Shown here piece after piece: positions 781 through 62,855 of a stretch of DNA of 64,000 bases (within the stretch, counting starts at the first letter, position 1; each line of letters opens with the position of its first letter). The stretch is from Nannobrachium achirus (Eukaryota; Chordata; Actinopteri; Myctophiformes; Myctophidae). The stretch is taken from NCBI GenBank assembly GCA_963921795.1, contig OY997647.1, forward strand, positions 62,329,155 through 62,393,154, in the 5' to 3' direction. The position numbers and the translations under genes are program-made. Below the pieces are notes generated by a model. That model saw nothing but the letters and a program-made list of their open reading frames with translations, searched no databases and was not told where the DNA came from.

Positions 781-1047
781 TATCGTCGTTGTTGAGGCGG
801 AAACCTCGTATATCTCCAAGTTTCACATTTGTACGTTCTTTTGCACAGTAAGGCCCTGCTTCATCGTACGAGGCCGTCGCACAAAAGTAGTGAAAACAGC
901 TGATCTACAAGCACACAACACCTCGCGGCGCGAGGCGTTGTGTGCTTGTAGATCGGCTGTTTTCACTAGTTTAGATCTTTTTTTACAATGATAAATGCAA
1001 AACCAACGGTTTTGGACATACAGCGTTTTCACCCGACAACGACAATA
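781..1047. mobile_element. TA-type MITE (family B) with central hairpin
   Basis: Ends TCGTCGTTGTTGAGGCGGAA and the mirrored CACCCGACAACGAC, bounded by TA. Family B ends read TCGTCGTTGTCGGGTGGAAA and TCGTCACTGTCGGGCAGAAA when both are oriented inward, with a TA target duplication as in Tc1/mariner. The hairpin lies at 889-967. Confidence 0.65.
889..967. repeat. Hairpin copy 1
   Basis: AGTGAAAACAGCTGATCTAC on the left is mirrored by GTAGATCGGCTGTTTTCACT on the right. Inner arms read AGCACACAAC and GTTGTGTGCT. Confidence 0.9.
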
Positions 1048-1718
1048 TTATAGACATGCAGTTGTCAGAAAGGTACAGTCAGTTATAACGAGCATGCAGT
1101 ACATATTTCACAATGTCCAATAATATGCTGCATAATTTAAGCACCATTGAAAGGGAGAACGAATGTTATAGCCTATTATTTCACGAGCAATTCTTTGCGA
1201 GGGGGAAAGATGCTATAGTCTGCGAAGAAGAAGAAGGGAGTGTTCTGTGTTGCAGTCACAGACAGACAATTCCATATCCTGAAAGAGGGAGAGGTCCGTA
1301 CTACGACAGCCACGCGTTCCACTACGCTGACGGGTGTAGTTGCACAAAATGGAGTTTAACAATGACCTAGCTGCACGGTCTGCGTTGTAAAGATGGTGGC
1401 AACAAAAAAAAGAAGAGAACAAACTGTACGTCTCTCTCTTCCCTCATGCCCTTCCCTGCTCTCTCGCTCTCTCTCTCTCTCTCTCTCTCTCTCCGCTCTC
1501 TCTCTCTCTCTCTCTCTCGTCTACCATTCTACTCCTTTACCCATTTCCTCTTTTTCTACCCTGTGCTTGCGTACGCACTCCATCTCCACCGTACATACAT
1601 ACATCTATATACAGCATGTGAACGCCGTGAAAGCTGTAGGGTGTTGCCCCCCCCCCCCAGCCACATACACACACACATACATACATACATACGGTATATG
1701 ACAACGAACCATGTAGCA

Positions 1719-1840
1719 TATCGTCGTTGTCGGGTGAAAACCTTGTATGTCCAAAACCCTTCGTTCTGCATTTATCATTTTAAAAATGATTCAAACTAGT
1801 GAAAACAGCCGATCTACAAGCACACAACGCCTCGCGGGGG
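1719..1840. mobile_element. Half of a family B MITE, including hairpin half (copy 2)
   Basis: Starts at the ATCGTCGTTGTCGGGTG end. The left hairpin arm at 1799-1835 runs into a G-run and the right arm is absent. Confidence 0.6.
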
Positions 1841-1849
1841 GGGGGGACT

Positions 1850-2100
1850 GAGTTACTAGGGCCCAAGGTGGAGGGGCCTTAATTATTTTATACTTTTAGC
1901 TATTGAAATATAGCAGATGTACAAGCTCACAGCGCGGCACCGAGTGCCGCGCTGCGAGCTTGTAGATTTGTAGATTTCTATTTTTGAAAAGTCGTGTATA
2001 TAGACCTTATGTGTGCAAATCTTGTCTTTAAGCGAACATTTGTAACTCAAATTTTGCTTCTGGGGGGGGGGGGGGGTCCCTGGAACTAAATATTTTGAGA
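1850..2100. mobile_element. hAT-like MITE remnant with hairpin
   Basis: Contains ACTGAGTTACTAGGGCCCAA, also found reversed at about 4490-4535 and 7165-7195, then a hairpin and the TGTAACTCAAATTTTGCTTC motif of the GGACC hAT family. Confidence 0.5.
1911..1986. repeat. Hairpin copy 3
   Basis: Left AGCAGATGTACAAGCTCAC, right GCGAGCTTGTAGATTTG. The inner arms GCGCGGCACC and GTGCCGCGC pair. There is a short duplication in the right arm. Confidence 0.8.
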
Positions 2101-2593
2101 TGGGGGTCTGTTGCCAAGCACAAAATAATGCGTAATAATGCTTCTAAATGGGTTAAACCCCCTCCCCCTATGAAGAACATTCATGGGGGGCCCGCAGTGA
2201 ATCCTTGTACCCAGGGCCCAGAATTTGGTGCGACACCCTTGATGCCAAGTTATGGTCACACATGAGCGCACGGTCACCGCGCACGCTGCTGTCATGTACG
2301 GGCCCCCCGCGCTGGGGGGCCCCGCGTCGGTCCATCACAGCATGTAGAAGAGAGATATCGCTTATTTCTTCCCGTTCTGGTTTCCATAAGGTTGCCATCG
2401 ATGACGCCGTGACTGAACTCATACTTTTGTTGTGTGTGCACGACGCTCGGAGCAACTGAGAAACCGACGGCGTAAGCAACGATTTCCTTAATTGAACATT
2501 CCAGAACATTCCCCTGCAAAATGGCTGCCGTGTGCCGGCACTCTGTCTCTGTGATGGCCGACAAGAGTGCGTGGGTCTGAGGTGTGTGCGCGG

Positions 2594-2697
2594 CACACAC
2601 ACACACACACACACACACACACACACACACACACACACACACACACACACACACACACACACACACACACACACACACACACACACGCACACACACA
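2594..2697 (+). repeat. (CA)n microsatellite, about 100 bp
   Basis: Nearly uninterrupted CA repeats. All long open frames here are repeat artefacts. Confidence 0.97.
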
Positions 2698-2898
2698 GTC
2701 ACACACAAACACTATGTGTTTAGTGTCTGCGTATGGAGTGCACATCTGTGGCACTGTGGTAAGTGCAAAAGGGCAATGTTGCTTTTGCCTCTTTAAGCAG
2801 ACTGCTATGTCAGGTGAAGTCTCCCTTCACCAGGTGATCTCTGCCGCGTACATAATTACCCCATTATTATACCACCTCAAAAACCCTTTGCTGTAATG

Positions 2899-60649: not shown

Positions 60650-61520
60650 GTCCACACATTGTATAATAAAAATGGACCCATTTTTCGATTTTGCTTGATT
60701 ACATTTTCTCCATAGTAGTTAATATATTATAGAACTTTAAAATGCAGCACTTAGAACCAAACTTTTCCCCCACAGGTGTATTAGAATATTGCTCAACAGT
60801 TTAACAGTATGTAATAGTAATTCAAGTGTAAATAAATGCTACAGTTGTTTTCACACAAGTCTGAATTACCCATGCCTAAGGTTTAATGGTATCCTGTGGA
60901 AATAAGCTTAGTCTTTTCATGGATCTCCTTTTAGTAGACCTTGTACCAGTGAACTGTACCGTCATGAAACTGTACCTTTTCCTATGCAAACTTCTAATAA
61001 AGTCTTCAATCAATCAAAATCCGTATTTGTCCACATTTCAACATGAACGGGGGTGAGTATAGGACCAAAAATACAATGATCTAAAAAGTCATTTATGAAA
61101 CAATGGCCTATTATGTTGACATGTGACCAGAGTTGGGGGGGAAAGACAATGTAACACCAGTATTGTGCTTTAAAATAAACAAATAAAATGGATCATGTGT
61201 ATTCAAAGAAGTAATCTGTGGGTGTTAGAGTACAGTCAGTTGAGAGATGAGCCCAACTGTGGTGTTTAAGGGAGCACCGTTTGTGTAGTTTAGACTGAAT
61301 CAAAAGAATAAAGCATTATTGTCCAGATCAAATTATTTGCTCTATCACTGTCTGGGTGATAACTGATATATGGTAGTTTTACGTGTACATATGCTATTTG
61401 TTCTCTATTTGCTATATCAGTCTGTCTTGGTGACATTGGTGACATTTATGTATTTGGAAGAGATATACGTTGATCTTCAAGTACTGATTGAACCATCCCA
61501 GACAACAAGAGAAGCATTCA
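60650..61520. other. Gene-free stretch
   Basis: AT-rich; apart from the LINE 3' end at 60893-61020, nothing recognised. Confidence 0.5.
60893..61020 (+). mobile_element. LINE 3' end with (ATCA)n tail
   Basis: Nearly identical to the copy at 49985, including GTACCAGTGAACTGTACCGT and the tail AGTCTTCAATCAATC. Confidence 0.6.
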
Positions 61521-61523
61521 TTC

Positions 61524-62317
61524 TTAAAGGAGTAGTTCACCCCCAAAATGACTTTTTTTCTATTGATTAGTCACGCCATGGAGACTAGAGTTCAATAATA
61601 TTTTTAGTTTTTTGTCACATTCCTAAGACAAAAATGTGATAACAATAAATTTACCCCCATTCGTTCCTGATGGGGACCCGTTTCGAAACTAGCCTGGTTA
61701 ATAAACCTGACTGCACAACACCACCCCCTGTTGGTAGTGGTGGTGTTGTGTAGTCTGGCCCTTCACATTAAATAAGCTTTTTCCATCAGCCCTCAGAGAG
61801 GGCGAGCCAATCAGGGCTGTAGGCTTGGGGCACGTGGTGGGTGGTGGCCTGGTTCAAAACCATTCAGCCAATCAGGCGAGTCTGTGTGTATTCAAACACT
61901 TCCCCCCTCCACTCTTATTACAGACATCAAACAGATTGTAGTCTTTGATGCTTTCAGTGACTAACGAGCTATTGACACTTGTATGGCTCAATCAATTACA
62001 GCAGCTCACAAGCCCTTTGAAGTTCAGAGGGAGCAATTAAGAGCAAGTCAACTTAACATTTTTTTAAACCACCCCCTGCCCACCCCCCCAGAAGTGGAAT
62101 GTCTGCCCGAAATCTCAGACTCTCTTCCCAAAACGAAGTGTGTGATAGAGTCTGACGCTTGCAGTCAGGCTATTTCGAAACGGGTCCGGAATCAATGGGT
62201 CCGATTTTTGTCTTAGGAATGCGACAGAACCCAAAAAATATTATTGAACTCTAGTCTCCATGGCGTGAGTAATCAATAGGAAAAAAAAGTCATTTTGGGG
62301 GTGAACTACTCCTTTAA
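61524..62317. mobile_element. TTAA-flanked foldback MITE with an element inserted at its axis
   Basis: Same ends as 55774-56123, with TTAA at 61524-61527 and 62314-62317. The axis is interrupted by the element at 61690-62172. Confidence 0.9.
61690..62172. mobile_element. DNA element inserted in a palindrome axis, TTTCGAAAC duplicated
   Basis: TAGCCTGGTTAATAAACC at the left and AGTCAGGCTA at the right. TTTCGAAAC occurs at 61681-61689 and 62173-62181, but only once in the uninterrupted copy (55931-55939). The superfamily is unclear. Confidence 0.82.
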
Positions 62318-62432
62318 ATAACCCAGCCTTCAGTTTACTGATTTCCCAAGAGAGATTCTCACTAAAGTTGGATATTTGGTTGTAATTACATTATTTGGAA
62401 GCTAAGAATTACCTGTATTAGGCTTTGGGCCA

Positions 62433-62632
62433 NNNNNNNNNNNNNNNNNNNNNNNNNNNNNNNNNNNNNNNNNNNNNNNNNNNNNNNNNNNNNNNNNNNN
62501 NNNNNNNNNNNNNNNNNNNNNNNNNNNNNNNNNNNNNNNNNNNNNNNNNNNNNNNNNNNNNNNNNNNNNNNNNNNNNNNNNNNNNNNNNNNNNNNNNNNN
62601 NNNNNNNNNNNNNNNNNNNNNNNNNNNNNNNN
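62433..62632. other. Assembly gap, 200 N
   Basis: A run of exactly 200 N, a conventional placeholder length. The true distance is unknown. Confidence 0.99.
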
Positions 62633-62735
62633 ACAAAGCTGCTGGCTATTGTTAGAATTGTCTGATAACTAATCATATAGAAGGCCTTCTATATGATTAG
62701 TTATCAAACAATTCTACAATAGCCAGCAGCTTTGT
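62633..62735. repeat. Near-perfect palindrome abutting the gap
   Basis: ACAAAGCTGCTGGCTATTGT mirrored by ACAATAGCCAGCAGCTTTGT around GAAGGCCTTC. Arms about 50 bases. Confidence 0.92.
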
Positions 62736-62790
62736 GTTCTCCCAGTCAGAATTAAACATTGGCCAAATTGTCAAATATTAGAGGCAGAAA

Positions 62791-62855
62791 TTGTGAAAAT
62801 AGCCGATCTACATGCTCACAACGCCTTGCAACGCGAGGCGTTGTGGAGCATGTAC
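62791..62855. repeat. Hairpin copy 43 (variant CATGC/GCATG)
   Basis: TTGTGAAAATAGCCGATCTA, CATGCTCACAACGCCTTGC, GCGAGGCGTTGTGGAGCATG; the outer right arm is lost and replaced by TACAAAGTACATG. Confidence 0.9.

Follow-up and report, generated by a model that had tools for sequence, protein, structure and literature searches.

A 71-bp palindromic hairpin carried by miniature transposons of three target-site classes in Nannobrachium achirus

The window analyzed here, a stretch of 64,000 nucleotides from the myctophid fish Nannobrachium achirus (C10:62329155-62393154 in the 1.66-Gb assembly), contains numerous copies of one palindromic hairpin, most of them located inside miniature inverted-repeat transposable elements (MITEs) with different ends and target sites. 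The hairpin is a discrete module with a sharp border, and for one hAT family its entry inside a small TA element is directly visible. The reading to which we give a probability of about one half is that a 71-bp palindromic module hitchhikes in many unrelated miniature transposons. The module would enter a founder MITE either nested within a small carrier or on its own as a bare hairpin, and the transposase of the host would afterwards multiply it. Propagating lineages would preserve the letters of the outer 20 bp and the pairing of the inner stem, while dead copies would lose the module mostly via deletions from the tip. Its retention across lineages with different target sites suggests help in amplification; the module probably aids its host either as a recognized site or as a cruciform formed during replication or transposition.

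Anatomy and abundance of the hairpin

The full unit is a near-perfect palindrome of 71 bp with 34-bp arms and a 3-bp loop, the fold having been computed for the hairpin at 3167-3237. Its border is readily apparent from the letter identity across 46 flank groups, 24 of which are single flanks: identity is 0.66-0.87 across AAAA and 0.69-0.96 across the next TAGC, falls to 0.37 at position -5, one base outside AAAATAGC, and remains at 0.24-0.33 from -6 outward. The border bases lie outside the search pattern, which consists of the inner 16 bases; the conservation of those inner bases is inflated, since the arms were located by them.

Conservation concerns the letters in the outer 20 bp, whereas in the inner stem it is mostly the pairing that is kept. 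In a set of 33 different 71-bp hairpins, paired cells make up 93.8%, against 86.3% after shuffling. Two-sided changes are found in 18 of the 34 pairs versus 9.8 in shuffled sets, a value as high occurring in none of 500 shuffles, although kinship among the hairpins can inflate such counts. Pair 9/63 is exceptional, being unpaired in 18 of the 33 hairpins within the conserved arm; of 40 M copies, 26 show a C in one arm opposite a T in the second.

Beyond the A/T run, the flanks are complementary for about 8 bp (0.36-0.64 by position vs 0.26-0.41 for mixed-host flank pairs; 28 flank-pair groups, in part related, with one hairpin taken per group). The letters of this palindromic continuation are host-specific: TAGTG or CTAGTG in B, ATTGTG in M, TTTGCC in D and TTGCGTGCTG in the L017 type, where L numbers denote genome stretches outside the window. 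Within families the arms are 88-97% alike and the flanks 57-84%, a comparison biased by the way in which arms were found. The left half of a family D element at 41944-42058 ends exactly at TTTGCC, the hairpin border, and is followed by unrelated DNA, the hairpin edge being the breakpoint. Head-to-tail hairpin arms occur at L020 2318-2373 and L019 3099-3126, and at L028 5903-6099 a unit of about 90 bp is repeated three times in tandem with one arm each, perhaps a small satellite derived from half a hairpin.

The 20-base arm (AAAATAGC, then A or C, then GATCTACAAGC) occurs in the window 14 times exactly and 16 times at ≤1 mismatch, both strands considered. With the 16-base core TAGC-GATCTACAAGC as query, known variants and ≤3 substitutions being permitted, the window yields 33 hairpins with two arms plus 16 single arms (9 left, 7 right), close to the roughly 43 copies, halves included, counted in the earlier sequence-only reading. 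In 276 kb of window and genome stretches, 238 arms are found; a few single arms are due to chance, since the backward-read control still gives 9. Stretches L007-L014 were chosen through an arm match; across 20 genome samples the GC content is 40-47%. The genome-wide search that the sequence-only reading had proposed, run with the 20-mer at ≤3 mismatches, yields 438,878 + 439,428 = 878,306 matches, against 95 + 80 = 175 for the reversed pattern. At about 35 bp per arm, the arms arithmetically amount to about 2% of the genome.

Phages and plasmids have zero arm matches, and prokaryote contigs have four. Viral contigs have two, which resemble coding DNA and lack the second arm; none of these collections gave a lead. 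Exact hairpin strings return two matches in the published literature, both unrelated, and word searches likewise give no description there (repeat libraries lay outside the scope). An Rfam scan of the window leaves the hairpin unmatched, mir-138 being the only hit.

Host elements and their kinship

The hosts fall in three target-site classes, TA, TTAA and 8-bp. A screen for host ends covered 38 loci of the window and included no shuffled control, ends being called hAT-like when ≤4 of 14 end bases differ. An 8-bp duplication with hAT-like ends is present at 11 of the 38, the term referring to ends and duplication alone. Nine of these duplications are exact (2899-3541, 8552-9127, 14686-15427, 15842-16124, 23928-24428, 30087-30648, 30920-31373, 51799-52341 and 57036-57512), and two have one mismatch (28544-29150 and 36312-36779). 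A TA duplication with B ends occurs at 783-1045 and 28784-29040. TTAA duplications were read by eye at 17523, 33871, 42722 and 11789; these hosts start CCCA and, judged by that duplication, would be TTAA-type MITEs, piggyBac- or Kolobok-like. The longer TTAA elements contain two hairpins, one per end region.

The family B core is a TA element of about 260 bp, standing alone at 783-1045 and nested in hAT-like CAGGGACGTGCTGG (7376, 8552, 51799, 54862) and CAGGGGTTTTCAAA (28544, 30087, 36312). Further hAT-like hosts are CAGGGGTCTTCAAC (C), CAGTGGTTCTCAAC (M), TAGGGATG (D), CAGTGGTGGAAAAA, CAGGCACGTGCACA and CAGGGGTGGGCAAC; the family D elements were identified by eye, as was the partial nesting of M in a second hAT, CAGGGTTCCCACG. 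The elements are listed below, with the strand in brackets and a point where none is assigned (TIR, terminal inverted repeat).

783-1045 (.): TA-flanked host, family B core, TIR ~TCGTCGTTGTCGGG, hairpin 893-963; from TA duplication, TIR and alignment
1714-1837 (.): partial B core, half hairpin at 1806
1844-2117 (-): TTAA-type (T) fragment, hairpin 1911-1972
2899-3541 (.): hAT-like CAGGGGTCTTCAAC (family C), duplication CTGTAATG, hairpin 3167-3237 at 47%
4226-4555 (+): TTAA-type (T) fragment, hairpin 4393-4463
7042-7220 (+): TTAA-type (T) fragment, right arm at 7107
7376-7888 (+): hAT-like CAGGGACGTGCTGG with nested B core, shortened hairpin 7592-7635
8109-8385 (-): family D copy, hairpin 8198-8260
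8552-9127 (+): hAT-like CAGGGACGTGCTGG, duplication AGAGGAAC, nested B core, hairpin 8800-8870
11620-11680 (.): degenerate repeated right arms, unrecognized host
11789-11970 (+): short TTAA element, single hairpin 11849-11919, both arms of outer (ATATA) type
13604-13959 (+): family D host, hairpin 13708-13760
14686-15427 (.): hAT-like CAGGCACGTGCACA, duplication CCCACCAG, hairpin 14788-14858; another repeat from ~14896
15842-16124 (+): hAT-like CAGTGGTTCTCAAC (family M), duplication GTCTACAG, deletion from inside the hairpin to near the right end
17523-18096 (+): TTAA element, hairpins 17587-17627 and 17989-18051, one per end region
19675-20385 (-): hAT CAGGGGTTTTCAAA lacking both B core and hairpin, TA site near 19790 empty; further insert in the other half
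23928-24428 (+): hAT-like CAGTGGTGGAAAAA, duplication GATGTTGG, hairpin 24094-24164
24557-24895 (+): family C-like fragment, hairpin 24833-24887
28544-29150 (+): hAT CAGGGGTTTTCAAA, nested B core 28784-29040 (TA), hairpin 28891-28961
29342-29865 (+): M-type half hairpin (29545), partial hAT inside another hAT (CAGGGTTCCCACG); by eye
30087-30648 (+): hAT CAGGGGTTTTCAAA, nested B core, duplication GAATAGAG, hairpin 30422-30453
30920-31373 (+): hAT-like (family C), duplication GCATAGAG, hairpin 31167-31237
32444-32865 (+): family M host, hairpin 32702-32748
33871-34379 (-): TTAA element, two hairpin sites (33919 half, 34252-34314)
35265-35657 (+): family D host (TAGGGATGAGACGATA ends), remnant hairpin at 35386
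36312-36779 (+): hAT CAGGGGTTTTCAAA, nested B core, duplication ATTTAGGT/ATATAGGT, hairpin 36570-36604
37073-37612 (+): M-type hairpin 37276-37346, nested hAT
40309-40627 (-): half TTAA element, hairpin 40354-40402
41279-41715 (+): TTAA-type pieces, duplicated hairpins 41417-41487 and 41595-41665
42722-43301 (-): TTAA element, hairpins 42766-42836 and 43196-43237
44384-44700 (-): hAT CAGGGGTTTTCAAA without B core or hairpin, empty TA site
45496-45978 (-): TTAA element, hairpins 45520-45553 and 45911-45953
48810-49036 (+): B core, hairpin 48910-48959
51799-52341 (-): hAT-like CAGGGACGTGCTGG, duplication TTTATATC, nested B core, hairpin 52037-52091
53788-53884 (+): M-related unit, hairpin 53831-53883, host of another kind (TCGAATATTCGA-rich)
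54579-54631 (.): hairpin in unrecognized host
54862-55354 (+): hAT-like host, nested B core, hairpin 55038-55108
57036-57512 (+): hAT-like CAGGGGTGGGCAAC, duplication CCTTACAT, hairpin 57118-57188 (P type)
62750-62855 (+): family M left part, hairpin from 62796, right part lost

Other features lie amid these elements. The mir-138 microRNA gene is found at 18736-18806 within dense MITEs (Rfam, 66.8 bits), and an open frame at 48073-48666 matches UPF0449 (Pfam, E 2.5e-23). A serine-rich open frame of 930 codons at 25662-28454 has no Pfam match and may be a host exon. Two inverted repeats are also present: one of 59 bp with identical arms (24897-24955 and 25447-25505), and a spacerless one of 145 bp, 85% complementary (55790-56079).

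The sequence-only reading had described hosts differing in ends and duplications. TA, several hAT-like and TTAA hosts are indeed seen; the independence of all hosts does not hold, since B is nested in two hAT families and M in a second hAT. Its suggestion that the hairpin prefers the middle is likewise borne out in part. In 10 of the 12 hosts or nested cores listed with both ends, the hairpin lies at 40%-63% of the length, and in the other two at 18% and 25%. An additional insert is present in the 18% case; in the relative of this element in L016, the coordinates place the hairpin close to the middle. The preference fails for 57036-57512, where the hairpin sits at 25%, and for the longer TTAA elements with a hairpin near each end.

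Beyond the hairpin, the host flanks are practically unrelated, in agreement with the earlier view that the hairpin is not shared by descent of the hosts. Among 105 pairs of 15 flank groups (≤6 members each), only the two sides of B (z 5.1) and B with P (z 2.5) rise above shuffled sequence; the next-best pair reaches z 1.4, and the median is 0.02. A single ancestral element that already contained the hairpin and gave rise to all hosts, whose ends and flanks then diverged, is highly improbable in the light of these unrelated flanks, of the TA, TTAA and 8-bp target classes and of the empty TA site described below, which marks an independent entry. What speaks for common ancestry is that family-specific compensated variants suggest a hairpin older than the present host families.

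Exchange between hosts seems to be rare. Both flanks could be assigned to a family for 53 hairpins, and in every one the two assignments agree, C and D being counted as one family and likewise T outer and T inner. The arms mostly follow the same division: B-type arms occur with B flanks in 30 cases and in none of the other classes, T-type arms with T flanks in 31 (8 unclassed), and M-type arms with M flanks in 23, with B in 1 (11 unclassed). Exact patterns give 4,681 M-left/M-right matches, 2 B-left/M-right and 0 M-left/D-right; the M/D pattern requires six T before GGC, so that the C form falls outside it, and neither D/D nor B/B served as a control.

Palindromes are mutually homologous in both orientations, and ectopic recombination from one element to another could spread the hairpin, and the sequence-only reading had offered such exchange as one of two mechanisms. 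As a general route it is very unlikely: besides the uniform flanks and the absent M/D combination, the family-specific letters of the hairpin hardly mix. The part that survives is the C/D case, with one flank in common and the other different, which may represent one old exchange. The two B-left/M-right matches point in the same direction, as does the element at 11789-11970, in which two outer TTAA-element ends are joined at one hairpin with two outer-type arms; this is the arrangement expected if a deletion had run from one hairpin of an element to its other hairpin.

Entry, solitary insertion and loss

Carriage inside a small TA element is shown for one hAT family. Two window copies of hAT CAGGGGTTTTCAAA, at 19675-20385 and 44384-44700, have the empty TA site AAAATATGCTATAAATAT. 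At the same site, the filled copies at 28544 and 30087 read AAAATA, then the whole B core starting with TCGTCACTGTCGGG, then TATGCTATAAATAT. The presence of empty and filled sites in one family indicates that the hairpin entered that hAT aboard the TA element. When 14 host copies were compared with the window plus about 240 kb of fetched loci, the copy at 19675-20385 shows a query gap exactly at the B-core ends (241-497); this screen missed the 44384 copy, whose empty site is seen by alignment. The alignment of hosts with and without the hairpin that the sequence-only reading had advised is available within the window itself, and it reveals a third route beyond the self-movement and recombination considered there.

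It is tempting to extend this route to every host: all would have acquired the hairpin by nesting of one carrier, a B-type TA element or its older relatives, whose ends were removed by later deletions that spared the palindrome, with no need for self-movement. Nesting is also seen by alignment for hAT CAGGGACGTGCTGG, and the P-type hairpin in hAT CAGGGGTGGGCAAC has one B-like flank (z 2.53) but no recognized B ends. Nevertheless, no B-like flank was found around the M, C/D, T, hAT 23928 or hAT 14686 hairpins; random erosion of a carrier is unlikely because the border sits at the same base in 46 groups; and one bare hairpin stands alone. Carrier nesting as the only route is accordingly a tentative alternative that we consider rather unlikely.

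The bare hairpin is located in L032 (C18, base 20,003,784), where 54 bp of hairpin, with no AAAA and with a trimmed right arm, lie directly between 24-bp direct repeats. The uninterrupted site occurs at 307 genome places at ≤3 mismatches, the control giving 0. Among the matches listed, two exact ones (L038, L039) have no hairpin, and the others start with TAGTTG, that is, the hairpin end followed by the repeat. L040 and L041, fetched from TAGTTG matches, carry the hairpin, L041 showing its right side only, with other DNA on the left. One large multi-copy repeat thus occurs both with and without the bare hairpin, and the simplest reading suggested by this one site is insertion of a bare hairpin with a 24-bp duplication. 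The earlier proposal that the hairpin moves by itself gains one candidate in this way, from a single repeat family.

Rfam gave no name to this repeat (L032, L038 and L040 scanned). It is found in arrays on C2, C3, C4, C8, C13 and C15, with a spacing of ~9-30 kb in most of the matches listed, and many array copies apparently hold the solitary hairpin. In L041, GTTAA next to the hairpin marks the junction with about 500 bp of other DNA, which may be a TTAA-type insertion. Direct repeats of at least 9 bp flank 38 of 165 hairpin loci, compared with 12.7% of random places, and many of them belong to the hosts. The 10-bp direct repeat around hairpin 14788-14858 was dismissed as an insertion mark, its right copy being the start of another repeat.

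Bare hairpins might alternatively be functionless filler, hairpin-forming single strands captured at staggered breaks during repair, with conservation reflecting one abundant source. The end-trimmed hairpin between 24-bp duplications and the 878,306 arm matches fit such an origin; compensatory change between families and the greater likeness of arms than of flanks, with the bias in arm finding noted above, do not, and we regard it as decidedly unlikely.

Regarding later change, alterations within families are mostly one-sided (one-sided/two-sided: B 10/0, T 15/4 with one paired, M 3/1, P 5/1), and this weakens arm-to-arm copying as the sole source of palindromy. Two-sided change mostly separates families, as if it had arisen in propagating lineages. 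Reduced hairpins are seen as well: 496 host B copies have the hairpin cut to ≤30 bp. In favor of the module, reduced copies of B and of the L017-type host mostly retain pieces of the arms.

Several observations weigh against the hitchhiking module. Two-sided changes within the T, M and P families lie slightly above the expected values (T 1.9, M 0.25, P 0.2; for B, with none seen, 0.1), with one of six paired, and 40 M copies show 59 one-sided and 7 two-sided changes, 6 of them paired, versus 2.2 expected; some arm-to-arm correction may occur in copies. No bare junction is present among 100 of the 496 reduced B sites, where arm remnants or part of the A/T run remain, nor at 33 reduced places of the L017 type, most of which keep remnants while about three look unrelated. 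The few reduced sites that hold the A/T run alone are compatible with either state. The host screen found no hairpin-free copies of the remaining host families, its other three matches being end-to-end short forms (two C hosts against one L030 stretch, and the hAT 14686 type at 46307-46428). Of their two flanks, C and D hosts have just one in common. The solitary case concerns one repeat family in which recombination between the 24-bp repeats would also yield "empty" copies, and L038 and L039 are so alike that they may be one event. Finally, selection for the hairpin in propagating lineages is something we infer, and no enzyme acting on the hairpin was found, none having been searched for.

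Comparison with known systems

If the hitchhiking module is real, it would be common to transposons with different target sites, and hence transposases, so that MITE success would depend on more than terminal repeats. The genome would also offer a natural test of the long-standing notion of hairpin-driven MITE amplification, with many host families, a near-identical module and a tip-deleted series for comparison in one genome.

For the zebrafish MITE Angel (Izsvak 1999; mentioned in PMC12628747), intrastrand pairing was reportedly linked to amplification. Compared by description, Angel is a single MITE family, whereas the present hairpin is a module across unrelated families. The conserved central domains of short interspersed elements (SINEs; CORE, V, Deu, Ceph) are likewise each one module common to elements with different ends; in contrast to the hairpin, they are not known to be palindromes and reside mainly in retroposons. 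The MER6 MITE contains a V domain, which a DNA element thus acquired from a SINE (PMC6887750).

Bacterial REPINs are described in PMC3116915 as two inverted conserved short sequences with a spacer that form a hairpin; they are small, non-autonomous, abundant and linked to RAYT transposases. Here too, two short conserved sequences in inverted orientation make up a hairpin, and REPINs give the nearest functional picture for a self-moving hairpin. Unlike them, most window hairpins lie inside other transposons, with one solitary case. A vertebrate counterpart, namely a mobile 71-bp hairpin moved in trans by a hypothetical hairpin-recognizing nuclease, inserting alone and riding transposon superfamilies as a hyperparasite, is an unlikely, speculative extension.

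The CMITEs of Acropora corals are the nearest precedent. According to the sections of PMC2872659 consulted, these are MITE families with different ends and a shared internal region of ~75 bases of unknown origin, whose variants follow the family with one exception; all are TTAA elements of ~100 bp with piggyBac-like ends, estimated at ~1,600 copies in one species. Different TIRs around a conserved internal region are common to CMITEs and to the hairpin hosts. The systems differ in that all CMITE families have TTAA with CC[C/T]T ends, whereas the present hosts include TA, TTAA and 8-bp classes, the TTAA ones starting CCCA. Furthermore, the module found here is a palindrome with compensatory changes and hundreds of thousands of arm matches, and those sections nowhere call the CMITE region palindromic. 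The hairpin hosts extend the CMITE kind of element across target-site classes, adding a palindrome with compensatory change.

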